Positions 9,829 to 59,236 of a DNA stretch of 64,000 bases are shown piece by piece. The notes below the pieces were generated by a model that had not been told where the DNA came from, made no database searches, and was given only the letters and a program-made list of their open reading frames with translations. This DNA comes from Moorella sp. E308F. Its GTDB lineage: Bacteria; Bacillota; DSM-521; Neomoorellales; Neomoorellaceae. Where the stretch lies: contig NZ_BJKN01000003.1 of assembly GCF_006538365.1 (NCBI RefSeq), positions 186,432-250,431 on the forward strand. Direction: 5' to 3'. The position numbers and the translations under genes were made by a program. Position 1 is the first letter of the stretch, and every line of letters starts with the position of its first letter.

Positions 9829-10908
9829 TTAACCAGATTGAGCCGGGTTTTCCCGCCGTAGCTCTTCGATAACTGCGGCCAGAACCCTGGCGACCAGGCG
9901 GGCGGAACGTTCAGCTTCTTCCAGGGTATTATTATCGCTGCCGATTTCGAAGAGCAGGGCACGGGGCAGGAGGTGCTGGTTGTAGCGTCCTTCCTGGACC
10001 CGGACACCCAGGCATAAACCGGGATAAAATTCGTCCATTTTTTTCGCCACCCGCTGGGCAAAGGCTTCATTCTGGCGCCAGTTGGGGTGTTCCAGGCGGG
10101 CATTGCTGCCTACGATAATGAGCACCTGGGCGACTTTCTGGTTGTTGATTTCCACTACCGGTGGTGCCGGCAGGCCGGCGTTGCGGTGGATATCCAGGGC
10201 TACCAGGACGGAAGGGTTTTCCGCCAGCATTCTTTTCAGGGTTTTTTCGGAATTGGCATAGGACCTGGTGAAGTCGGGATAATCGTGGATGGTAGTTGAA
10301 CGTACTACCGGGACACCGTAGTCTTTACTTAAAGCTTCGGCCAGGACCGCCGCCACCTGGCTGACGCCGCCGTTTTTCCCGGGAAATTTAGCCTGTCCCT
10401 CACTCGGCTGGTAGGATTCCGCATTGTGGGTGTTGTATATAGCTACCAGGGGGTTTCCGGCGCTGGGGAGCTCCATTTCTGATGGCGCTGGCGGTACACT
10501 TTCCTCCGGCAGGGGCTGGGGTAATACATACTCTTCTTCGGTGGTTAAGAGGCGTGTTGATTCAGCGCTACCGGGGAAAACTACCAGGGGTGAGGCCAGG
10601 ACCTGGACGGCAGCCGCCAGGGCTTCACTGGAATTATCCTGCGGGCTGCTGGCCGCGCGTAAAGCAAGGGTCGGCAGGCCCTCGCTTAAAATGCCTTCCA
10701 GCAGGGGCAGTGGTAACCAGGCAGAATAACCGGGTACTCCCAGGGATAGCTGGCGGCCGGCTTTAATCAAACGCCAGGTACCGGTAGCCAGGGAAAAAAT
10801 AACCACCACTGCCACGAGAACTTTTACCAGGCGGGATAGAAAGAGTCTGGCCTGCCAGCGGGTAATAACGTGAATCCGCAACCTTTCCGCCCCCTTGCTG
10901 GTAGCCAT
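9829..10908 (-). CDS. spoIIP: Stage II sporulation protein P
   Basis: 359 residues. An N-terminal transmembrane helix (about 27-48, VKVLVAVVVIFSLATG) precedes a linker and the SpoIIP amidase/endopeptidase domain with VAIYNTHNAESYQP, LDIHRNAGLP and LLFEIGSDNNTLEEAERSA. It degrades septal peptidoglycan with SpoIID and SpoIIM during engulfment of the forespore. The histidines of THNAE and DIHRN and the glutamate of FEIGS are the expected zinc and catalytic residues. It lies near rpsT as in Bacillus, though gpr is not next to it here. Confidence 0.93.
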   Translation of the reverse strand: MATSKGAERLRIHVITRWQARLFLSRLVKVLVAVVVIFSLATGTWRLIKAGRQLSLGVPGYSAWLPLPLLEGILSEGLPTLALRAASSPQDNSSEALAAAVQVLASPLVVFPGSAESTRLLTTEEEYVLPQPLPEESVPPAPSEMELPSAGNPLVAIYNTHNAESYQPSEGQAKFPGKNGGVSQVAAVLAEALSKDYGVPVVRSTTIHDYPDFTRSYANSEKTLKRMLAENPSVLVALDIHRNAGLPAPPVVEINNQKVAQVLIIVGSNARLEHPNWRQNEAFAQRVAKKMDEFYPGLCLGVRVQEGRYNQHLLPRALLFEIGSDNNTLEEAERSARLVARVLAAVIEELRRENPAQSG

Positions 10909-10968
10909 TTTATTCCTCCGCGGGATAATTTAGACCTGGGGAGGGACCACGAGGGGCAATGTTTAGGA

Positions 10969-11251
10969 GCCCCTCATGGCGGTACGCTGCCACCAGCGAG
11001 GGAATGAAAAATGCCTGGCTGGCATTTGTCGGAAGCGAGCGACTTGGCCCGAGTGGCGAAGCGGCCCAGGCGAAGCTGAGGAGCGAGGGCGGGGCCGAGG
11101 ACAGGATGTCCGAGGCCGGATTCTAAAGGCAAGGACGCCGAATAGGCCGGGAACCCCGCCCGAGCCCGAGGCTGAGCCGTAGGCCGCTCCACAAGGGCCA
11201 TGGAGCGAGCGTGACAATGCCAGCCTGCGATAGAGTTATTTCCGGAGGAGG
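10969..11251 (+). repeat. Large structured repeat, copy A (upstream of larB)
   Basis: Fills the whole divergent space between spoIIP and larB. It begins with a hairpin TGGCGG-TACG-CTGCCA followed by CCAGC. It then has a long stem GGCTGGCATTTGTC (11017-11030) pairing with GACAATGCCAGCC (11213-11225), enclosing about 180 bases with GAGCGAGCG near both ends. Inside, GGGCGGGG pairs with CCCCGCCC around GGCCGAGGAC..GTCCGAGGCC. The right end TTATTTCCGGAGGAGG contains the larB ribosome-binding site. Homologous to copies B, C and D; this copy lacks the nested palindrome. Confidence 0.85.
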
Positions 11252-11258
11252 CTGAGCA

Positions 11259-12014
11259 GTGACTGAGGCCCAACTCAAGGATCTTTTGCAGGCCTATAAA
11301 GCCGGACAGGTTGACCTGGACACGGTTATGGGGCATTTAAAAACTTTAAAGGAAGAAGACCTGGGCTTTGCCAAGGTCGATCATCACCGTGCCTTAAGGA
11401 ACGGCTTTCCGGAGGTTATTTTCGGCCAGGGAAAAACAAAGGAACATGTGGCGGCCATTGCCTCCCGCCTGGCGGCCGCCGGCTCAACGGTCCTGGTAAC
11501 CAGGACTACCAGGGAAGCATACCAGGAGGTTGCCGCCCGCCTGCCGGCGGCTGAATTTAACGAACTGGCCCGGACCATCGTGGTTGCTGCCGGGGAGATC
11601 AAGCCTACCGGTGGTAGAGTGGCGGTTTTAAGTGCCGGGACGGCCGACCTGCCTGTGGCTGAAGAAGCAGCGGTGACGGCGGCGGTAATGGGTAATGAGG
11701 TTGAGAGAATTTACGATGTCGGTGTGGCCGGCATTCACCGCCTGCTGGGGCGGGTGGAGCTGGTACGCCGGGCTGATGTGGTCATTGTCGTGGCAGGCAT
11801 GGAAGGCGCCCTGGCCAGCGTTGTGGCCGGCCTGGTGGACCGGCCGGTAATTGCCGTGCCGACAAGCATCGGTTACGGTGCGAGTTTCGGCGGGCTGGCC
11901 GCCCTGCTGACCATGCTCAACAGCTGTGCTGCCGGCATCGGCGTCGTTAATATTGACAACGGTTTTGGCGCTGCCGCCCTGGCCACGGCCATTACCCGCC
12001 TGAAAAAAGTATAA
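11259..12014 (+). CDS. larB: Nickel-pincer cofactor biosynthesis protein LarB
   Basis: 251 residues. It has the LarB-type N-terminus (LKDLLQAYKAGQ) and an AIR-carboxylase (PurE-like) domain with VLSAGTADLPVAEEAA, DVGVAGIHRLL, GMEGALASVVAGL and PTSIGYGASFGG. The family carboxylates and hydrolyses nicotinic acid adenine dinucleotide in synthesis of the nickel-pincer nucleotide used by lactate racemase and relatives. The start is GTG with GGAGGAGG 9 bases upstream, the site lying in repeat copy A. No larA, larC or larE gene is adjacent, so partners must be elsewhere. Confidence 0.92.
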   Translation: MTEAQLKDLLQAYKAGQVDLDTVMGHLKTLKEEDLGFAKVDHHRALRNGFPEVIFGQGKTKEHVAAIASRLAAAGSTVLVTRTTREAYQEVAARLPAAEFNELARTIVVAAGEIKPTGGRVAVLSAGTADLPVAEEAAVTAAVMGNEVERIYDVGVAGIHRLLGRVELVRRADVVIVVAGMEGALASVVAGLVDRPVIAVPTSIGYGASFGGLAALLTMLNSCAAGIGVVNIDNGFGAAALATAITRLKKV

Positions 12015-12066
12015 TTTACCTCCTTTTTGGGCAATGCTATAGGCGAACCCGAAGGAGGTGATAAAT

Positions 12067-12405
12067 ATGACCAATTGGGTGGGTACTGTTGTCCGCTTTG
12101 TTGTCTCGGCCCTGGTACTGATGCTGGTAGGTTTTATCCTTCCCGGCATTAGAGTAGCAGGTTTCACCGGTGCCCTGATTGCAGCTGTGGTTATAGCCAT
12201 CCTGGGCTGGCTGGCAGAAGCCGTCCTTGGCAAACGGATTTCCCCCCATGGTCGCGGCATTGTCGGCTTTATCGTCGCGGCAATTGTAATCTATCTTGCT
12301 CAATTTATTGTCCCCGCCTACTTAAGCGTGAACATCTTGGGTGCTTTACTGGCGGCTCTAGTTATCGGTGTAATTGATGCCTTTGTTCCTACCGAGCTGC
12401 GCTAG
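12067..12405 (+). CDS. Phage holin superfamily IV-like membrane protein
   Basis: 112 residues with four hydrophobic segments and the family pattern VRFVVSALVLMLVGFILPGI near the N-terminus and NILGALLAALVIGVIDAFV near the end. These small proteins are named for resemblance to mycobacteriophage holins but are widespread chromosomal genes of unknown role. ATG 12067 has AAGGAGG 9 bases upstream; a GTG three codons earlier overlaps that site and is unlikely. A strong terminator follows. Confidence 0.85.
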   Translation: MTNWVGTVVRFVVSALVLMLVGFILPGIRVAGFTGALIAAVVIAILGWLAEAVLGKRISPHGRGIVGFIVAAIVIYLAQFIVPAYLSVNILGALLAALVIGVIDAFVPTELR

Positions 12406-12421
12406 GAAATAGACTGCCGGG

Positions 12422-12453
12422 GCGGGCCGGGCTTTTAGCCCGGCCCGCTTTCT
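12422..12453 (+). terminator. Intrinsic terminator after holin-like gene
   Basis: GCGGGCCGGGC-TTTTA-GCCCGGCCCGC followed by TTTCT, a perfect 11-bp stem. Confidence 0.92.
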
Positions 12454-12558
12454 GCTATAATAGAGCCGGTTCTAGTGGAGTTACTCATGTTCCCGTATAG
12501 ATGACAGGATGGCACTTCCTGCTTCTGACTTCCATTTTGTGGGGGAGGAAGTTGTTTA

Positions 12559-14364
12559 GTGACGGAGCTGAAAAATATCCGTAATTTCTGCATCATTGCC
12601 CATATTGACCACGGCAAGTCTACCCTGGCCGACCGCCTCCTGGAGTATACCGGCGCTTTGAGCAAGCGGGAGATGGTGGATCAGGTCCTGGATACTCTGG
12701 AATTGGAACGGGAGCGAGGCATCACCATCAAGCTCCAGGCGGTCCGCCTGAATTATCGCGCCCGGGACGGCCAGGAATATGTGCTAAACTTGATTGACAC
12801 TCCGGGGCACGTGGACTTTACCTATGAAGTATCCCGGAGCCTGGCTGCCTGTGAAGGAGCGCTGCTCGTAATTGACGCGGCCCAGGGCATTGAGGCCCAG
12901 ACCCTGGCCAATGTTTACCTCGCCCTGGAACACAACCTGGAAATTATCCCGGTCATCAATAAAATCGACCTGCCTAATGCCGAGCCGGAACGGGTACGCC
13001 GCGAGATAGAGGACGTCATCGGCCTGGACGCCGGTGAAGCCATCCTGGCCTCGGCCAAGACCGGGGTGGGGACGGAAGAGATCCTGGAGGCCATTGTCCG
13101 GCGCATTCCCCCGCCCCGGGGCGACAGAGAAGCGCCGCTGAAGGCGCTGATTTTTGATTCCATCTTTGACAGCTACCGGGGGGCTATCCCCTATATCAGG
13201 GTTGTCGAGGGCCGGGTGCAGAAAGGCGACCGCATCCGTTTCATGGCCACGGGGGCCGAATTTGAAGTCAATGAGGTGGGCATTTTCACCCCGGCGCCGC
13301 GGCAGGTTACAGCACTAGCCGCCGGGGAGGTAGGCTTTCTTTCCGCCAGTATAAAAAATGTCAAGGATACCCGCGTCGGCGACACCATTACCAGCGCTAC
13401 CCGGCCGGCCGGGGAGCCCCTGCCGGGCTACCGCAGGGTAATGCCCATGGTTTACTGCGGCCTGTTCCCGGTGGACTCGGAACAATTTGACAGCCTGCGG
13501 GACGCCCTGGAAAAGCTGCAGTTAAATGACGCCTCACTAAGTTTTGAGCCGGAAACATCGGTGGCCTTAGGATTCGGCTTTCGCTGCGGTTTCCTGGGAC
13601 TCCTGCACATGGAGATTATTCAGGAGCGGTTGGAAAGGGAGTACGGCCTGGAACTCATAACTACCGCGCCCAGCGTAGTCTACCGGGTGGTGCGCACTGA
13701 CGGGCGGGTGGAGATGGTTGACAATCCCACCGCCCTGCCGGCACCTAACCTGATAGACCATATTGAAGAACCCTACGTCGAGGCCACCATTATGACACCC
13801 AAAGAATATGTAGGTCCGGTAATGGAACTCTGCCAGGAGAAACGCGGCACTTTCCTTAATATGGATTACCTTTCGGAGAAAAGGGTGGCTTTAAAGTACG
13901 ACCTGCCCCTGGCGGAAATAATCTATGACTTCTTTGACCAGCTTAAAAGCCGGACGCGGGGTTACGCTTCCCTGGATTATGAAGTCAAGGGCTACCGGCC
14001 GGCGGAACTGGTAAAGATGGATATCCTTATTAATAATGAAGTGGTGGATGCCCTGTCGGTGATCACCCACCGGGACCAGGCCTACCACCGCGGCCGCGCC
14101 CTGGTGGAACGCCTGCGCCAGCTGATACCCCGCCAGCTCTTTGACGTGCCCATCCAGGCCGCCATCGGCAGCCGGGTCATCGCCCGGGAAACCATCCCGG
14201 CGCTGCGCAAAAACGTCCTGGCCAAGTGTTATGGCGGTGATGTGACGCGGAAGCGCAAGCTCCTGGAGAAACAAAAGGAAGGTAAAAAGCGCATGAAACA
14301 GGTGGGCACGGTGGACATCCCCCAGGAGGCCTTTATGGCCGTGCTGAAGGTAGGGAAGTCGTAG
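12559..14364 (+). CDS. lepA: Elongation factor 4 (LepA back-translocase)
   Basis: 601 residues, full length. G-domain motifs are all present: AHIDHGKST (G1), DTPGHVDF (G3), NKIDLP (G4). Domains II, III and V follow, then the LepA-specific C-terminal domain ([20 protein letters not shown]). This ribosomal GTPase acts on stalled or mistranslocated ribosomes. The GTG start has GGGGGAGGAAG upstream. The stop lies 22 bases before repeat copy B, which separates it from hemW in what is normally a lepA-hemW-hrcA order. Confidence 0.98.
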
Positions 14365-14386
14365 GCTTTGATGATAGTATCTGAGA

Positions 14387-14682
14387 CTGGCTTTAGTTTG
14401 GAGCGAGCGAGCTTCTCCGAGCGGCGAATTGGCCTTGGTGAAGCCGAAGAGCGAAGGCGGGGCCGAGGACAGGAGGTCCGAGGCCGGCCTTTGAGGCAAG
14501 GACGCCGAATAGGCCGCCCAGCACTCACAGTAACCAAGTTACAGTAACCAGTTCTTCGGTTTATGCAGTCGCACTACCTTTGGAGGCACCTGAGTTTAGT
14601 GAGTGCTGGGCGCCTTAAGCCTTACGGCTGGAACCGTAGGCCAATCCGCAAGGGCCAGGGAGCGAGCGAAAACAAAGCCAGC
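14387..14682 (+). repeat. Large structured repeat, copy B (carries hemW 5' end)
   Basis: Outer stem CTGGCTTTAGTTT (14387-14399) pairs with AAAACAAAGCCAG (14669-14681). Copies A, C and D have ATT/AAT where B has TTT/AAA, so paired positions change together. GGAGCGAGCG follows the left arm and precedes the right arm. The inner stem AAGGCG/CGCCTT replaces the GC-rich equivalent of copy A. A 96-bp palindromic insert sits in an internal loop. The 5' hairpin and right flank of the other copies are missing. The final part is in frame with, and translated as, the beginning of HemW. Confidence 0.85.
14516..14611 (+). repeat. Small palindromic insert nested in copy B
   Basis: Ends are GCCCAGCACTCAC (14516-14528) and GTGAGTGCTGGGC (14599-14611), a perfect 13-bp inverted repeat around 70 unrelated bases. 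It replaces the loop that reads GGGAACCCC in copy A. The insert contains TGGAGG (14581-14586), and its right arm begins with the GTG codon that is the best start for hemW. Confidence 0.88.
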
Positions 14683-15807
14683 TCCATTTACATCCATATC
14701 CCCTTCTGTGTCCGCAAGTGCCATTACTGCGATTTCGTCTCCTATCCCGGCCGGCCGCCGGAGGAAATGGCCGCCTACTGCCGCGCCCTGGAGCGGGAAA
14801 TGGACCTGGTTGCCGGGAAATGGCAGCCGGGACCGGCGGCCACCGTTTATATCGGCGGCGGTACCCCGACCCTGCTCCCGGCCCGTAATTTGGAGCAGGT
14901 CCTGGACGCCGTGGACCGCTTCTTCGGCCGGCAGCCGGGGGCGGAGGTCACCGTAGAAGCCAACCCCGGCACAGTGGACGGGAGGAAGCTTAAGATTCTT
15001 AAGGCCGCCGGGGTTAACCGCCTTTCCCTGGGGGTCCAATCCCTCGACGACGACCTACTGGCGGCCATGGGCCGCATCCACCGGCGCCGGGACATCTACG
15101 AGGCCTTTGATCAGGCGCGCCGGGCTGGCTTTAGCAACATCAACCTGGACCTCATCTTCGGCCTGCCGGGCCAGACCCTGGACGGCTGGCGGGCTACCTT
15201 AAAGGAAGCCATTGCCCTGCAGCCCGAGCATATTGCCGCTTACAGCCTCCAGGTGGAGGAAGGTACGCCCTGGGGAAAACTGGCGGCTGCCGGCGAGTTA
15301 CCCCTGCCCGGGGAAGAACTGGAACTGGCCATGTACCAGGAAGCCCGGCAAATGCTCGCCGCCGTCGGTTATCAGCAATATGAAATATCCAACTTCGCTC
15401 GGCCGGGGTACCAGTGCCGCCACAACCTCACTTACTGGTTAAACCAGCCCTATCTGGGCCTTGGGGCGGCGGCGGCCTCTTACTGGCGGGGCCGGCGCTG
15501 GCAAAATTATAGCGAGCTGCACCGGTACCGGCACGTCTTATCCCGCGGCCGGCTGCCCCGGGCGGAAATAGAAACCTTAACGCCCCACCAGCAGATGGCC
15601 GAAACCATGTTCATGGGCCTGCGCCTGATGGCCGGTGTAGACTTGGAGGACTTCCGGCGGCGTTTCGGCGTTGACGCCCGGGAAGTTTATGCCCGGGAAC
15701 TGGCTGGTCTTTACCGGGCGGGACTGGTGGAGGAAAAGGACGGCCATTTAAGGCTCACCGAAAAGGGTTTACCCCTGGCCAATGAAGTTTTTATGCAGTT
15801 TGTCTAG
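14599..15807 (+). CDS. hemW: Radical SAM haem chaperone HemW (formerly coproporphyrinogen oxidase-like)
   Basis: About 402 residues. The radical SAM motif CVRKCHYC comes in the N-terminal IYIHIPFC block, followed by YIGGGTPTLL, NLDLIFGLPGQT and the C-terminal HemN-like domain (HQMAETMFMGLRL as the typical run). HemW is thought to hand haem to acceptor proteins. The usual start just before IYIHIPFC is absent. The nearest in-frame start is GTG 14599 (TGGAGG 12 bases upstream), with ATG 14563 as the alternative. Either way the first ~28 or more residues, up to ENKAS, are encoded by repeat copy B. This lineage-specific N-terminal extension was created by a mobile element. Confidence 0.92.
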   Translation: MSAGRLKPYGWNRRPIRKGQGASENKASSIYIHIPFCVRKCHYCDFVSYPGRPPEEMAAYCRALEREMDLVAGKWQPGPAATVYIGGGTPTLLPARNLEQVLDAVDRFFGRQPGAEVTVEANPGTVDGRKLKILKAAGVNRLSLGVQSLDDDLLAAMGRIHRRRDIYEAFDQARRAGFSNINLDLIFGLPGQTLDGWRATLKEAIALQPEHIAAYSLQVEEGTPWGKLAAAGELPLPGEELELAMYQEARQMLAAVGYQQYEISNFARPGYQCRHNLTYWLNQPYLGLGAAAASYWRGRRWQNYSELHRYRHVLSRGRLPRAEIETLTPHQQMAETMFMGLRLMAGVDLEDFRRRFGVDAREVYARELAGLYRAGLVEEKDGHLRLTEKGLPLANEVFMQFV

Positions 15808-15820
15808 CCTTTACTTTCCC

Positions 15821-15849
15821 TTGACAAAACGAAAGGCCGGTGGTATGTT
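15821..15849 (+). promoter_or_regulatory. Sigma-A promoter of the hrcA-grpE-dnaK-dnaJ operon
   Basis: TTGACA at 15821-15826 and TATGTT at 15844-15849 with a 17-bp spacer, directly upstream of the CIRCE operator. Confidence 0.88.
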
Positions 15850-15861
15850 TTAAGTAAGCTC

Positions 15862-15888
15862 TTAGCACTCTTACCTTAAGAGTGCTAA
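15862..15888 (+). promoter_or_regulatory. CIRCE operator (HrcA binding site)
   Basis: TTAGCACTC, nine bases, GAGTGCTAA: an exact match to the CIRCE inverted repeat. It lies between the promoter and the hrcA start, so HrcA represses its own operon; heat inactivates HrcA and relieves repression. Confidence 0.97.
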
Positions 15889-15903
15889 TAAGAGGGTGAG
15901 ATC

Positions 15904-16938
15904 ATGCGGATGGATGAGCGGAAAAAAAAGGTCCTGGCCGCCGTTGTTCAGGATTATATCCTTACTGGCGAACCGGTAGGCTCACGCACCATTGCCCGGC
16001 GGTACAACCTGGGAGTAAGTCCAGCCACCATCCGGAATGAGATGGCCGACCTGGAAGAAATGGGCTTGCTGGAGCAACCCCATACCTCGGCCGGCCGTAT
16101 ACCTTCGGATTACGGTTACCGTTACTACGTTGACTGCCTCATGGCGCCGGAAAAATTAACCCCGGCAGAAGAGGAATACGTGCGCCGGCGTTACAACCAA
16201 AAAATGCTGGAAATTGAGCAGGTCCTGGAGGAAACGGCCCGTTTACTGTCCGAGATGACCGCCTATACGGCAGTAGCCCTGGGTCCCTATCAAAATAATG
16301 CCATTCTGGAACAGGTGCAAATTCTACCTGTCCATTCAGCCAACAAGGCCCTGCTGGTAGCAATCACCAGTACCGGTATGGTCGAACACCGGATTTTTGT
16401 CATTCCGGAAGACGTAACGCCGGAGGATCTAACCCGTATCTCCAGGGTTCTCAATGCCAGTCTGCAGGGTATAGCTCTGGAAGAGCTGCGTCAGGCGGTA
16501 TTGAGGGATATTTACCGGGAAGTAGCCGAGCACCGGGGTTTAATCAAACAGGTGATTGACCTTTTACAGCAAATTCTGGCCCTGGAAGGCGGGGAGAAAG
16601 TTTACCTGGAAGGCATCCTCAATATTCTAAGCCAGCCAGAGTTTAAAAATTTAGAGAAGGTCAAGGATATCTTGGCTTTTCTTGAGCGGGAAGAGGCGTT
16701 GAGGCGTATTTTTAATGCTGCTCCTGGAAGCGGCCTTACTATAAGGATCGGGCAGGAGAATAAAGAAGAAGGTATTGATAAATGCAGCGTAGTAACCATT
16801 AGCTATGCCGTTGAAGGGAAAATAATGGGGAAAGTGGGCTTACTCGGACCAACGCGGATGCACTATTCCCGGGTTATATCGGTTCTCCAGTGTGTAGCTG
16901 ATAGTTTGTCCCGCGCTTTGGAGCAATTTTACCGCTAA
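15904..16938 (+). CDS. hrcA: Heat-inducible transcription repressor HrcA
   Basis: 344 residues. An N-terminal winged helix (RKKKVLAAVVQDYILTGEPV, SPATIRNEMADLEEMGLL) and the inserted dimerisation and GAF-like domains match the family throughout, ending SRALEQFY. It binds CIRCE with help from GroEL. First gene of the chaperone operon. The ATG follows AGAGGGTGAG. A hairpin terminator directly after the gene probably lowers readthrough into grpE. Confidence 0.97.
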   Translation: MRMDERKKKVLAAVVQDYILTGEPVGSRTIARRYNLGVSPATIRNEMADLEEMGLLEQPHTSAGRIPSDYGYRYYVDCLMAPEKLTPAEEEYVRRRYNQKMLEIEQVLEETARLLSEMTAYTAVALGPYQNNAILEQVQILPVHSANKALLVAITSTGMVEHRIFVIPEDVTPEDLTRISRVLNASLQGIALEELRQAVLRDIYREVAEHRGLIKQVIDLLQQILALEGGEKVYLEGILNILSQPEFKNLEKVKDILAFLEREEALRRIFNAAPGSGLTIRIGQENKEEGIDKCSVVTISYAVEGKIMGKVGLLGPTRMHYSRVISVLQCVADSLSRALEQFYR

Positions 16939-16960
16939 AGTTAGAGGGCCACCTGGACAA

Positions 16961-16990
16961 GGCCGGTGCCTTTAGGTGCTGGCCTTTTTT
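16961..16990 (+). terminator. Terminator or attenuator between hrcA and grpE
   Basis: GGCCGGTGCC-TTTA-GGTGCTGGCC followed by six T residues; ten pairs including G-U. Its position inside the operon suggests partial termination rather than a transcript end. Confidence 0.8.
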
Positions 16991-17016
16991 ACGAAAGGGA
17001 GTGACCATAAGAAGTT

Positions 17017-17745
17017 ATGGATGCCAGTCAGGACAATAAAATGAATAATGGAACGGCAAGTGGGGAAATGGAAGAAAGGCTGACCAGCCCGGGAGAAGCG
17101 CCTGCCGGAGAGGCAGGGGAAGGAACAGGGCAGGAAACTAGCAGCCCGGCCGGGGCTGGAGCAGAGCCGGTCGAGGAAAGTAACGAAACGGTCGGAGAAG
17201 CCAGCCAGGAAGTATTAAACCGCCTTCAGGGGGAGCTGGCCGCTAAAACGGAGGCTTTAGCGGAGCTGCAGCAACGCTATTTGCGCCTGCAGGCCGATTT
17301 TGACAACTACCGCAAGCGTACCCGCCGCGAGTACGAGGAACTGACCAGGCTGGCCAATGCCCGGCTCATTGAGAGCCTCTTGCCCATCCTGGATAACCTG
17401 GAACTGGCCCTGGCAGCAGCTGCGGGGGCAGAAAAGCAGGCCCTGGAGACGGGGGTAGAAATGACTCTGCGGCAATTACAGGAAATCTTGGCCCGGGAAG
17501 GGTTAATGCCCGTAGCTGCTTTGGGTCAGCCCTTTAACCCTGAGCTCCATGAAGCAGTGGCGCGGGAAGAAACACCGGAGCCGGATAAAATAAACCTGGT
17601 GGTGGAAGAATTGCGCCGGGGTTATACTTTACATGGCAAGCTCCTGCGGCCGGCCATGGTCAAAGTGGCGGTAGCGGCCGGTGCCACCGAACAGGAAAAC
17701 AAACAAGACCCTCATGCCGCTAACTCGGCACCAGCAGAAGAATGA
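17017..17745 (+). CDS. grpE: Nucleotide exchange factor GrpE
   Basis: 242 residues. A long acidic, disordered N-terminus (first ~65 residues) is followed by the coiled coil (LQRYLRLQADFDNYRKRT) and the C-terminal beta domain (VVEELRRGYTLHGKLLRPAMVKVA). It releases ADP from DnaK. The start is uncertain: ATG 17017 is about 12 bases from a GGGAGTGA stretch, and ATG 17041 is possible. The last residues (about DPHAANSAPAEE) and the stop codon lie in the left part of repeat copy C, so the C-terminus was supplied or altered by the element. Confidence 0.95.
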   Translation: MDASQDNKMNNGTASGEMEERLTSPGEAPAGEAGEGTGQETSSPAGAGAEPVEESNETVGEASQEVLNRLQGELAAKTEALAELQQRYLRLQADFDNYRKRTRREYEELTRLANARLIESLLPILDNLELALAAAAGAEKQALETGVEMTLRQLQEILAREGLMPVAALGQPFNPELHEAVAREETPEPDKINLVVEELRRGYTLHGKLLRPAMVKVAVAAGATEQENKQDPHAANSAPAEE

Positions 17746-17819
17746 AAATAAGTGGCTGGCATTTGTTTGGAGCGAGCAAAAACAATGCCAGCCTTGAGCG
17801 AAGTTATTTTCAGGGTAGA
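17708..17819 (+). repeat. Large structured repeat, copy C, minimal form (grpE end to dnaK leader)
   Basis: The 5' hairpin TGCCG-CTAACT-CGGCA is followed by ACCAGCAG. An outer stem TGAAAATAA pairs exactly with TTATTTTCA. The inner stem GGCTGGCATTTGTTT (17754-17768) pairs with AAAAACAATGCCAGCC (17778-17793), closed by the loop GGAGCGAGC. The ~180-base interior of copies A and D is absent, so this is the core structure. The grpE stop codon is the TGA of the outer stem. The right end GTTATTTTCAGGGTAGA also occurs in copy D. Confidence 0.85.
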
Positions 17820-17845
17820 AGCTGGAGAACAGGAGGTAGATCACA

Positions 17846-19687
17846 ATGGGTAAAGTAATCGGTATCGATCTGGGTACAACTAACTCCTGCGTAGCCGTCA
17901 TGGAAGGCGGGGAAGCAGTAGTCATCCCCAATGCGGAAGGCGGCCGTACCACACCTTCCGTTGTAGCTTTTACCAAAGACGGGGAGCGGGTTGTCGGCCA
18001 GGTGGCCAAACGCCAGGCCATCACCAATCCCGACCGGACCGTCATGTCCATTAAACGCCATATGGGCACCAATTATAAAGTAAAAATCGATGATAAGGAA
18101 TACACGCCGCAGGAAATATCGGCCATGATCCTGCAAAAGCTGAAGGCCGACGCAGAGGCCTACCTGGGCGAAAAGGTGACCCAGGCGGTCATAACGGTAC
18201 CGGCCTACTTTACTGACAGCCAGCGCCAGGCTACTAAAGACGCCGGCCGCATTGCCGGCCTGGAGGTTTTAAGGATTATCAACGAGCCTACGGCCGCGTC
18301 CCTGGCCTACGGCCTGGACAAAGAAGAAGACCAGACCATCCTTGTTTATGACCTGGGCGGCGGCACTTTTGACGTTTCCATCCTGGAACTGGGGGATGGC
18401 GTCTTTGAAGTCAAAGCTACCAGCGGTAATAACCGCCTGGGCGGTGATGACTTTGACCAGCGGATTATGGACTATCTGGTAGACATCTGCCGCCGGGAGC
18501 ACGGGGTGGACCTGAGGCAGGATAAAATGGCCATGCAGCGCCTGAAGGAAGCGGCGGAAAAAGCTAAGATCGAGCTTTCCAGCATGACCAGCACCAACAT
18601 TAACCTGCCCTTCATCTCAGCGACGCCTAACGGTCCCATCCACCTGGATGTCAACTTAACCCGGGCCAAGTTTGAAGAACTGATAGCCGACCTGGTAGAA
18701 AAGACCGTCGGTCCCACCAGGCAGGCCCTGGCCGACGCCGGGCTGGAGCCCAAGGATATTGACAAGGTGTTACTGGTAGGCGGCTCCACCAGGGTGCCCC
18801 TGGTCCAGGAGACGGTGCGCAAGATCCTGGGCAAAGAGCCTCACAAGGGCATCAACCCGGATGAGTGCGTTGCCCTGGGTGCCGCCATCCAGGCCGGGGT
18901 CCTGGCCGGCGAGGTCAAGGACGTCCTGCTCCTGGATGTTACCCCGCTGTCCCTCGGCATTGAAACCCTGGGCGGCGTGTTCACGAAGATAATTGAACGC
19001 AACACCACTATCCCGACGTCCAAGAGCCAGATCTTTTCCACCGCCGCCGACAACCAGACCACGGTGGAAATTCACGTCCTCCAGGGCGAGCGGGCCATGG
19101 CCGCCGACAATAAAACCCTGGGCCGCTTCCAGCTGACGGGTATCCCACCGGCGCCCCGGGGCGTGCCCCAGATCGAAGTCAAATTTGATATCGACGCCAA
19201 CGGCATCGTCCACGTCTCGGCCAAAGACCTGGCCACCGGCAAACAGCAGGCCATAACCATTACTTCATCCAGCGGCCTCACGGAAGAAGAGATCCAGCGT
19301 ATGGTAAAGGACGCCGAAGCATATGCCGAGAGCGACCGCAAGCGCAAGGAGGAAATTGAAACCAGGAACCAGGCGGACTCCCTCATCTACCAGGCCGACC
19401 GCACCTTGAAGGAATTTAAAGACAAAGCCGACAAGGCCGATGTGGACCGCATCGAACAGGCCAAGAAAGAACTCCAGGACGTCATGGACAGCAAGAATAC
19501 GGCTAAGATCAAAGAAAAGATGGAAGCCCTTTCCCAGGCCCTCTATACCCTGACTACGAAGGTGTACCAGCAGGCCGGTGCCCAGGCCGGCGGGGCCCAA
19601 GGTGGCAGCGGTTCTACCGGCGAGGCCAAACAGGACGGCAATGTCTACGATGCCGACTACAAAATCGTCGATGACGACAAGAAATAA
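17846..19687 (+). CDS. dnaK: Chaperone protein DnaK (Hsp70)
   Basis: 613 residues, full length: ATPase domain ([17 protein letters not shown] at the N-terminus, [31 protein letters not shown]), linker [14 protein letters not shown], peptide-binding domain and helical lid, ending in a G/Q-rich tail and KIVDDDKK. It folds and protects client proteins with DnaJ and GrpE. ATG is preceded by AGGAGGT. Repeat copy C forms its immediate leader. Confidence 0.98.
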
Positions 19688-19697
19688 AAGCCGGTGA

Positions 19698-20852
<1,155 letters not shown>

Positions 20853-20913
20853 AGCCCTGTCCCTGGTGGCTGGTAAGGTTATGTTCAGCTACCCTGTGGG
20901 AGGGTGAGCCGAT

Positions 20914-21654
20914 ATGGCCCACCATTTTTTTCTGCCCGGGCCTGTTGTTCCCGGCGAACCGGCCGTCCTGGAAGGGGAAAACGCCCATCACGCCCTCCGC
21001 GTCCTGCGCCTGCGGGTGGGAGAGACCATCTCCCTGGCCGACAGCCAGGGTCAGGGGTACCTGGCGGAAATCATCGCCATCCACAAAGACCGGGTGGTCG
21101 CTGCCGTCAAAGCCCCCCTGGAGAGCTCCGAGCCGCGGGTAAAAGTCACCCTCTACCAGGGCTGGCCCAAGGGCGATAAAATGGATTTTATCATCGAAAA
21201 ATGTACAGAATTAGGGGTAGCCAGGATTGTCGTCCTCAATACGGAACGTTCCATCCCCCGGCCGGACCAGGTGGCCTGTGCCCGGCGGCGGGAACGCTGG
21301 CAGCAGAAGGCCCGGGCAGCAGCCAGCCAGAGCCGCCGGCACCTGATCCCCGCGGTGGACGGCCCCCTGGAGCTACAGGCAGCCCTGGCAGGGCTTAAAC
21401 CCGGCACCTTGTTGCTGGTCCCCTGGGAAGAAGAACGCTCCTGTGACCTCAAGTCCATACTCACCGCAGTCCCGGAAGAACAGGAACTGGCCTTGCTTAT
21501 TGGCCCCGAAGGGGGCTTGAGCCGGGCGGAAGTCGAACTGGCCCGTAAATTTGGTGGTTTACCCGTAACCCTCGGCCCCCGCATCTTGAGGACGGAAACG
21601 GCCGGCCTGGTCTGCCTGGCTGCCATCATGTATGCCCTTGGGGAACTGTCATAA
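20914..21654 (+). CDS. rsmE: 16S rRNA (uracil(1498)-N(3))-methyltransferase
   Basis: 246 residues. An N-terminal PUA-like part (HHFFLPGPVVPGEPAVL) is followed by a SPOUT (trefoil knot) methyltransferase domain with KMDFIIEKCTELGV and the SAM-binding IGPEGGLSRAEVELA and LGPRILRTETA. It methylates U1498 of 16S rRNA in the 30S subunit. prmA, often between dnaJ and rsmE in Firmicutes, is missing here. A GGGAGGGTGAG site precedes the ATG. Confidence 0.95.
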   Translation: MAHHFFLPGPVVPGEPAVLEGENAHHALRVLRLRVGETISLADSQGQGYLAEIIAIHKDRVVAAVKAPLESSEPRVKVTLYQGWPKGDKMDFIIEKCTELGVARIVVLNTERSIPRPDQVACARRRERWQQKARAAASQSRRHLIPAVDGPLELQAALAGLKPGTLLLVPWEEERSCDLKSILTAVPEEQELALLIGPEGGLSRAEVELARKFGGLPVTLGPRILRTETAGLVCLAAIMYALGELS

Positions 21655-21681
21655 ACCCCGCTATTGAGGCAAGCAAGACAA

Positions 21682-22029
21682 GATACCTGTGCCGCTGGCG
21701 CGGCACCAGCAGATGGCTGAAAACAACAAGCTGGCATTTGTCGGGAGCGAGCGAGCTTCTACCGAGTGGTGAAGCGGCCCAGGCGAAGCTGAGGGATGGA
21801 TGATAAGCGGGGCCGAGGACAGCGAGGCCTTCGGCCGGATTCTAAAGGCAAGGATGCCCAATAGGTCGGGAACCCCGCCTTAAGCCCTGGCTGACCCAGC
21901 ACTCAACTCGCAACGGTTTTGTTCGCGAAGAGACACCTATTACAAACGAGTTGAGTGCTGGGCGCTCCACAAGGGCCATGGAGCGAGCGAGACAATGCCA
22001 GCCTGCGATAAAATTATTTTCAGGGTAGA
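21682..22029 (+). repeat. Large structured repeat, copy D (leader of mtaB)
   Basis: 5' hairpin TGCCGC-TGGC-GCGGCA and ACCAGCAG. The outer stem CTGAAAA pairs with TTTTCAG, and GCTGGCATTTGTC (21730-21742) pairs with GACAATGCCAGC (21991-22002). The interior resembles copy A; AAGCGGGG pairs with CCCCGCCTT where copy A has a G-C-only stem. A 68-bp palindromic insert replaces the loop after GGCTGA. The right end ATTATTTTCAGGGTAGA is shared with copy C and ends just before the mtaB ribosome-binding site. Confidence 0.85.
21895..21962 (+). repeat. Small palindromic insert nested in copy D
   Basis: CCCAGCACTCAACTCG and CGAGTTGAGTGCTGGG, a perfect 16-bp inverted repeat around 36 bases. The first 16 bases of each arm are identical to those of the insert in rnpB; the loop sequence is different. 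Confidence 0.9.
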
Positions 22030-22044
22030 TCAGAGGTGAAACTC

Positions 22045-23415
22045 GTGCCCTCATCCCGAGTGGCCCTGGTGAGCCTGGGCTGCAAAGTCAACCAGAACGA
22101 ACTGGAAGCCATGAAGCACCTCTTCCGGGAGGCCGGCTACGAGATCGTACCCTTCCCGGAAAAGGCCGACGTCTACGTCGTTCACACCTGCACGGTCACC
22201 CACATCAGCGACCGCAAGTCGCGGCAGCTTATCCGCCGCGCCCTCCGGGCCAACCCGGAAGCAGTAGTGGCCGTTACCGGCTGCTATGCCCAGGTAGCTC
22301 CGGGGGAGGTGCTGGCTATCCCCGGCGTCGATGTAATAGTCGGTACCCGGGATCGGCACCGGCTGGTAGAATTAGTAGAAAAAGCACGCGAAGAAGGTGC
22401 TCCGATTAACGCCGTCCGCGCCCATGAGCCCGGCGAAGCCTTTGAGGAATTGCCTCTGGTAGAGGTGAGCAGGGCGCGGGCTTTCCTGAAGATTCAGGAA
22501 GGTTGCGAGGAATTCTGTACATACTGCATTGTCCCTTATGCCCGCGGGCCCTTACGCAGCCGGGCACCAGAAGCGATTCTGGCCGAGGTGGAGCGCCTGG
22601 TAGCTGAGGGTTACCTGGAAATAGTCCTCACCGGCGTCCACACCGGCGCCTATGGCCGCGACCTTCCCGGAGGGATAGACCTGGCCAGCCTTCTGAAAAA
22701 AATCGTCCAGATCCCCGGGCTGCAACGCCTTCGCATCAGCTCCATTGATCCCCTGGATTTTACCCCCGAATTGAAGGCCGTGCTGACAGGGGAAGAGGTC
22801 ATCTGTCCCCATTACCATATCCCCCTCCAGAGTGGGGATGATACCATCCTGCAAAGAATGGGACGCCGTTACAGCAGCCGTTACTACCTGGAGTTAATCG
22901 CTTCCCTGCGCTCCAGGCGGCCCCGGGCGGCCTTTACCAGCGACGTCATGGTCGGCTTTCCAGGGGAAACAGAAGAGCAGTTTCAAAATACCATGGCGTT
23001 AGTCAAGGAGGCAGCCCTGGCTGCGATCCATGTTTTTCCTTATTCCCCGCGCCGGGGTACGCCGGCGGCGGCCATGCCTGATCAAGTAGCCCCTGAGGTA
23101 AAAAAGGAGCGGGAACGGCGGCTCCTGCAGCTGGGGCGCCGCCTGGCCCGCCAGTATGCCCGGGAGTTTTTAAACGAAACCATGGCGGTCCTGGTGGAAA
23201 GACCTTTGCCCGGTCAACCGGGGGTTTATGAAGGCCATACCGACAATTACCTGAACGTAGCCTTTCCGGCGGAAAGGGATTTGACGGGACAACTTGTCAC
23301 GGTAAGGCTTAAGGAATTACAGGGAGGTTTAATCTGGGGCAGATTAGAAAAAGATGTTAAGGAGAAGCAGGAAAATGGCCCTGGAGAGAGAAATAAAGAT
23401 TTAGTACAGCATTGA
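22045..23415 (+). CDS. mtaB: tRNA t6A37 methylthiotransferase MtaB
   Basis: About 456 residues: N-terminal UPF0004 domain with cluster cysteines (LGCKVNQNE, HTCTVTHISD, VTGCYAQ), radical SAM domain with CEEFCTYC and ARGPLRSR, and a C-terminal TRAM domain. It adds a methylthio group to t6A37 of tRNAs reading ANN codons. GTG 22045 is preferred over GTG 22036, because the latter abuts the only ribosome-binding site (AGAGG). The product tail NGPGERNKDLVQH is lineage specific. Copy D is its immediate leader. Confidence 0.95.
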   Translation: MPSSRVALVSLGCKVNQNELEAMKHLFREAGYEIVPFPEKADVYVVHTCTVTHISDRKSRQLIRRALRANPEAVVAVTGCYAQVAPGEVLAIPGVDVIVGTRDRHRLVELVEKAREEGAPINAVRAHEPGEAFEELPLVEVSRARAFLKIQEGCEEFCTYCIVPYARGPLRSRAPEAILAEVERLVAEGYLEIVLTGVHTGAYGRDLPGGIDLASLLKKIVQIPGLQRLRISSIDPLDFTPELKAVLTGEEVICPHYHIPLQSGDDTILQRMGRRYSSRYYLELIASLRSRRPRAAFTSDVMVGFPGETEEQFQNTMALVKEAALAAIHVFPYSPRRGTPAAAMPDQVAPEVKKERERRLLQLGRRLARQYAREFLNETMAVLVERPLPGQPGVYEGHTDNYLNVAFPAERDLTGQLVTVRLKELQGGLIWGRLEKDVKEKQENGPGERNKDLVQH

Positions 23416-58700: not shown

Positions 58701-58795
58701 ATAAACATGGGGATTACCCGTCCTCCTTGACAGATTGCTATAAAGGGTGTTATATTTAAATCCGCTGAAGAAAAGTGGATAAGTGCTTTTGAGTA

Positions 58796-59236
58796 AACCG
58801 GATGGTCGCGGGCGATAAGCGCCTGGCGCGCCTATCGCCTGAGGAAAGTCCGAGCTCCGCAGGGCAGGGTGCTGGATAACGTCCAGTGGAGGCGACTCCA
58901 AGGAAAGTGCCACAGAAACAGACCGCCCAGCACTCAACTCGACAGTTGGACCTCTTTCACTATAAGCGAACCTGATGTTTTAAATTCAGGTTTGTATATA
59001 AAAGTTTTCATCTGTCGAGTTGAGTGCTGGGCAAGGGTGGAAAGGTGAGGTAAGAGCTCACCAGCGGTTAGGCGACTAACCGGCTCGGTAAACCCCACCT
59101 GGAGCAAGACCGAATAGGGGGACAAAAGGGGTGGCCCGCCCCGTCCCCGGGTAAGGTCGCTGGAGGCGCCAGGCAACTGGCGTCCTAGATAGATGACCAT
59201 CCAAGACAGAACTCGGCTTACAGGTTTACTCAAAAG
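58796..59236 (+). ncRNA. rnpB: RNase P RNA (class A) with palindromic insert in the P12 arm
   Basis: P1 is formed by CTTTTGAGTAAACC and GGTTTACTCAAAAG at the two ends. Universal blocks in order are GAGGAAAGTCCGAGCTCC, CAGGGTGCTGGATAAC, GGAAAGTGCCACAGAAA, AAGGTGAGGTAAGAGCTCACC, GTAAACCCCACCTGGAGCAA, GAATAGG, and AGATAGATGACCATC with ACAGAACTCGGCTTA. This is the catalytic RNA that matures tRNA 5' ends. Between GACCGCC and AAGGGTGG, where the P12 arm belongs, lies a 108-base palindrome related to inserts elsewhere in the window. The core is intact, so the RNA is probably functional. Confidence 0.96.
58925..59032 (+). repeat. Palindromic insert forming P12 of RNase P RNA
   Basis: Perfect 21-bp inverted repeat: arms 58925-58945 (GCCCAGCACTCAACTCGACA plus G) and 59012-59032. 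The 66-base loop contains a second hairpin AACCTGA/TCAGGTT. The outer 16 bases of each arm are identical to the insert in copy D at 21895-21962, and the outer 12 to that in copy B. Confidence 0.9.

Follow-up and report, generated by a model that had tools for sequence, protein, structure and literature searches.

Nested palindromic repeats at the 5′ end of hemW in Moorella and a probable shift of its translation start

In-frame palindromic repeats within conserved genes have been described in Rickettsia as the Rickettsia palindromic elements (RPE, from Ogata et al. 2000 in the summary given by PMC10969869), and in the enterobacteria ERIC-like repeats are occasionally fused to ORFs, at the N-terminus among other places (Delihas 2007, PMC2759123). 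Here we describe a locus in a genome of Moorella (G000; 3.06 Mb in 10 contigs), a genus which includes the named relatives M. mulderi, M. stamsii and M. sulfitireducens, where a mobile-looking palindromic element and a second, nested palindrome occupy the 5′ end of hemW. The analysed stretch of DNA, referred to as the window, is 64,000 nucleotides in length, and its positions are used as coordinates below. We consider it probable that the element was inserted in frame, that the smaller palindrome was subsequently nested within it, and that HemW translation restarts at a GTG codon at position 14599.

On the forward strand, lepA (12559-14364) is followed by hemW, which ends at 15807, and by a further gene at 15904. 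The lepA assignment is supported by the ORF and its translation, the C-terminus of which is matched in relatives, and the ORF ends in a TAG stop codon (14362-14364). The gene at 15904 is preceded by an inverted repeat (TTAGCACTCTTA/TAAGAGTGCTAA), and we take these to be hrcA and the CIRCE element, with grpE and dnaK following. The conserved body of hemW (14686-15807, forward strand) encodes the radical SAM heme chaperone HemW (TIGR00539; Bitscore: 333.6, above the equivalog cut-off of 205.4). Its translated product is matched by the Radical_SAM and HemN_C domains and contains the IYIHIPFC block and the CxxxCxxC radical SAM motif, present as CVRKCHYC, of which the cysteines are invariant. Judging from dN/dS values of 0.22-0.26 against sister species, the hemW body is under constraint, which alone is no proof of expression after the nested insertion. 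A search of the genome for a second hemW yielded none, the other match scoring only 19.8 bits.

The gap between the lepA stop (14364) and the IYIHIPFC block (14686) is filled by a repeat of 294 bp (14388-14681, forward strand; boundaries from nhmmer), which corresponds to a palindromic element of approximately 204 bp (ends TGGCTTT...AAAGCCAG) once the nested insert is discounted. The latter is a small palindrome (14516-14611, forward strand), whose arms (14516-14528 and 14599-14611) form a perfect 13-bp inverted repeat. The preliminary description had claimed that no start codon exists just before IYIHIPFC, and both direct reading and the ORF listing for hemW (14563-15807) confirm that no ATG, GTG or TTG is found between the GTG at 14599 and the body at 14686. 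As this condition is common to the genus, it does not represent an error. A non-canonical start right before the block was considered and rejected; ATT could serve in this genome, yet the codon at that place is CTC or CTA in several relatives, and it is as such not a shared solution. It had further been claimed that the hemW frame is open back through the right part of the repeat. This is correct, the frame being closed upstream by a TAA codon (14545-14547), and only this right part of the element is open in the hemW frame in this genome. Only two in-frame start codons lead uninterrupted into the hemW body, namely a GTG (14599-14601) with an upstream GGAGG (14582-14586), both recognized previously within the small palindromic insert, and an additional ATG (14563-14565), likewise located in the nested palindrome. 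Counting from the GTG, 29 residues precede the I of IYIHIPFC, 28 of which are encoded by repeat DNA, in agreement with the approximately 28 extra residues first described. The in-frame ATG at 14371, where sister species start hemW, is still present. It is cut off from the body by the TAA of the nested insert and heads a leader ORF of 58 codons (14371-14547, forward strand), in frame with hemW.

At present, the most likely start of HemW translation is GTG 14599, which opens the right arm of the nested stem and would use the Shine-Dalgarno-like GGAGG. The predicted duplex energy of this site is -9.3 kcal/mol, compared to about -4.8 to -9.5 kcal/mol for the native starts of relatives, and comes close to, without reaching, the 5% tail of random sites in the window (-9.8). 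Counting against this start codon are its spacing of 12 nt from the GGAGG, which is long, and its strong pairing unless the leader ORF is translated, with a predicted probability of being unpaired of 0.003 in the full folded leader and of 0.5-0.8 once the left arm is removed. Since the codon sits in the 13-bp stem, initiation probably depends on the melting of this stem. Ribosomes finishing the leader ORF would displace the left arm, making a leader-ORF-dependent start at GTG 14599 plausible. Initiation would thus probably require ribosomes arriving from lepA and the leader ORF to melt the left arm before stopping at 14547, the part of lepA in this coupling being suggested only by its position.

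A second possibility, although an unlikely one, is that HemW is produced from ATG 14563 through termination-reinitiation after the leader-ORF TAA and without a Shine-Dalgarno sequence, giving 41 residues before IYIHIPFC. This codon is in frame, lies close behind the stop, 15 nt past the TAA, and is less paired than GTG 14599, with a probability of being unpaired of 0.39 in the full leader; its predicted Shine-Dalgarno duplex, however, amounts to just -1.1 kcal/mol, and the sole strong site lies downstream of it.

The repeat is not confined to this genome. It is present at the same hemW site, right after the lepA stop and first start codon, in seven of the eleven Moorella genomes, while two more (G004 and G005) contain only the two element ends, joined in frame as a 22-bp stub (CTGGCTTTGTAAACAAAGCCAG or one mismatch to it), and G007 and G009 have neither element nor stub at hemW. 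The stub was ruled out as a general footprint of the element, being found among the eleven genomes only at hemW in G004 and G005. The hemW element lies in the forward orientation in the genome under study, M. stamsii, G008 and UBA4076, and is inverted in M. mulderi, M. sulfitireducens and G010. Both flanks are approximately 96% identical between M. mulderi and M. stamsii, with the element in opposite orientations. Out of 65 copies, the seven from hemW group together in a single clade irrespective of orientation (97/89; recovered in 96% of bootstrap trees, with no shuffle as low), which favours a single insertion and a later inversion over separate insertions. Orientation also differs between species at two further sites (L039/L124 versus L112/L118/L126, and L122/L127 versus L123/L154). 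Private bases are shared by the forward hemW copies and likewise by the inverted copies, a pattern which suggests an old inversion and an exchange of alleles among species. Recent or constant flipping in each species fits this pattern less well, and we reject it. The hemW elements of L003 and L007 are approximately 94% alike, compared to 82-84% in the flanks, and between L002 and L005 synonymous divergence is 0.034 in the tail and 0.41 in the body. That the element should be more alike between species than its flanks points to conversion among copies, to exchange, or to the hairpin being constrained.

In five of the seven genomes, namely M. stamsii, UBA4076, M. mulderi, M. sulfitireducens and G010, an open frame extends from the ATG behind lepA, homologous to ATG 14371, across the entire element and into hemW. 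This indicates that the element is normally an in-frame insertion behind the native start. The tails encoded by the full element comprise approximately 75 residues, for example MAGFSLERATWPERRIG...NKASSIYIHIPFC or MVAGFVFARSLALAEWP...TKASHALYIHIPFC. Five of the six uninterrupted hemW copies are passable in their present orientation, compared to 6/39 (forward) and 9/39 (reverse) complete copies elsewhere when read in the hemW phase (Fisher p 0.0025 for hemW copies versus others, which is indicative, as the copies are related and not independent). A variant longer by one base is common to M. stamsii and G008, and two further bases nearby restore the frame in M. stamsii only. In the AlphaFold2 model of a 414-residue form (mean pLDDT 90), residues 1-37 score below 50 and the core above 90, and the predicted fold begins at the SIYIHIP strand. 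The repeat-encoded residues thus probably form a tail that is disordered and does not disturb the fold. Selection on the element-encoded tail at the amino acid level was considered and rejected, dN being approximately equal to dS between M. mulderi and M. sulfitireducens, where only eight changes are available.

Most sister species read through the element in frame from a native ATG that has been kept. The proposal that a mobile element took over the beginning of the gene holds to the extent that, on the best reading of the sequence, repeats here supply the start region and N-terminus. It does not hold for the large element itself, which did not replace the start, since most sister species retain the native ATG after lepA and its loss here occurred only via the TAA of the nested palindrome. 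We suggest that the element of approximately 204 bp entered the 5′ end of hemW right behind the start codon in the ancestor of most Moorella, and that most species retained an open frame through it in whichever orientation it lies, whereby HemW would have gained a dispensable N-terminal tail. In the genome under study, the smaller palindrome would then have inserted into the element, keeping the net frame and introducing the TAA that splits it into leader ORF and hemW, with the putative restart at GTG 14599 adding the 29 residues. A more speculative extension, which we hold to be quite improbable, is that the element at hemW functions as an invertible coding cassette, with both strands encoding a stop-free N-terminal tail. 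The element, having inverted at hemW and at the two further sites noted above, would then tune HemW production through the tail or the start that is chosen, and the nested palindrome would add a leader-ORF switch in this genome.

The outer element, with termini TGGC...GCCAG and terminal inverted repeats, occurs in approximately 100 copies in the genus. One BLAST search gave 21 matches in this genome; in a second, across the genus, there were 16 here, 12-32 in each of the nearly complete Moorella genomes that are likewise rich in the element, and few or none in G004, G005, G007 and G009. The RNA of an uninterrupted copy is predicted to fold into a single long hairpin (-122 kcal/mol; z -9.2), and in an alignment of 31 copies both-sided changes that keep the pairing are observed at 15 of the 58 predicted pairs, which suggests that the hairpin as such is being maintained. 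The inspected copies are almost all intergenic, and among the approximately 80 inspected, hemW is the only clear intragenic case, in which no start follows the element while the frame reads into the gene. Other in-frame copies (valS, leuC-like, purM-like and glmM-like frames) were discarded, as the recognizable downstream genes have their own start codon behind the element. Further copies are located upstream of genes in the window (11020-11223 and 21732-22005), the second of which holds a different type of nested palindrome (CCCAGCACTCAACTCG...CGAGTTGAGTGCTGGG; 21895-21962) at another point of the element. Sequence related to positions 15-190, the inner portion of the element, recurs in G012 and G016, which represent two other genera in the family, with at least 31-40 copies in each genome. 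Comparison of positions 10800-22300 against the Rfam families returned only sub-threshold matches, located outside the element, and no matching family, and no paper describing the Moorella element was found among the literature searched.

The nested palindrome has 20 matches across five Moorella genomes. Wherever the flanks are matched as well, its place within the outer element is the same (positions 129/137), and one copy, in G008, is 100% identical. The same TAA is present in most of these copies, with CAA in its place in some. The stop thus most likely arrived with the insert, and a sequencing error as its source was rejected on the same evidence. The presence of CAA in some copies, and the fact that the TAA is the only break in the frame from ATG 14371, could be taken to mean that HemW is still made from this ancestral start, through read-through or only in cells lacking the TAA, with an extension of approximately 105 residues before IYIHIPFC. 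We regard this as very unlikely, given that most nested copies, the identical one in G008 included, carry the TAA. Read-through of UAA outside of a special context is usually inefficient, which further speaks against the use of ATG 14371. A palindrome of 108 nt (58925-59032; GCCCAGCACTCAACTCGACAGTTG...) is also observed in the window within rnpB (58790-59236; RNase P RNA, RF00010), in a helix which is presumably P12. This helix is extended by varied palindromic sequence in seven of the ten readable Moorella genes and short in the remaining three. The ends of the rnpB palindrome (GCCCAGCACTCA) are matched by the arms of nested repeats, both at hemW and at other sites; the nested repeats may derive from rnpB or may have been inserted into it.

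In G008 (L004, 1260-1510), the start after lepA is one base out of frame with hemW through the element and the Shine-Dalgarno sites of the in-frame starts that remain are weak, so that the native start has been broken independently for a second time. The loss of the native frame there also, without a good alternative start, cautions that expression may be poor for one or both of the genes. It is nevertheless highly improbable that hemW is weakly expressed or becoming a pseudogene in the genome under study and in G008. The native frame has been broken twice, independently and differently, but the body is intact, with the low dN/dS and the conserved CxxxCxxC motif noted above, and no second hemW was found in the genome under study. 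An assembly or sequencing artefact at this junction, where nested repeats are error-prone for assemblies, can practically be dismissed, as the element is found at hemW in seven independent Moorella assemblies and the nested palindrome recurs in five genomes at the same place in the element.

The restart at GTG 14599 within a nested repeat would make hemW a rare and testable case of repeat DNA probably becoming the front end of a housekeeping protein. The genus offers a natural series at one conserved gene, comprising empty site, stub, forward, inverted, frame-shifted and nested states, through which the conversion of a repeat into translated protein, the keeping of the frame in both orientations and the recovery of a start after the original was cut off become testable. 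Automatic start calling may, furthermore, give wrong HemW N-termini in Moorella.

Like MITEs and the ERIC, BOX and RUP repeats, the Moorella element is small, multi-copy and non-coding, with terminal inverted repeats and a strong hairpin, and is mostly located upstream of genes. No target-site duplication or transposase partner was identified, the empty sites of G007 and G009 being too diverged to show a duplication, and a search with its terminal inverted repeats matched many extra sites. Control by leader peptides or translational coupling involves a short ORF that terminates a little upstream of a start codon sequestered in a stem. The leader ORF of hemW similarly terminates a little upstream of the stem-held GTG, but this arrangement would be an accident of repeat insertion and any regulatory role is putative. 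We have not found described either two in-frame orientations of a repeat at one site or a nested repeat taking over a start. As in the RPE, according to the summary in PMC10969869, a short, multi-copy palindromic repeat lies in frame and stop-free in a conserved metabolic gene and would be translated. RPEs enter many ORFs, whereas the Moorella element is not frequently inserted into unrelated ORFs, hemW being the only one among approximately 80 copies; the hemW site differs further in lying at the extreme N-terminus, in being in frame in both orientations in sister species, and in the apparent replacement of its start by a nested repeat. By these comparisons, the Moorella element behaves like a family of intergenic palindromes that has a single intragenic site and is not classed as an RPE-type family, though it is RPE-like at hemW.
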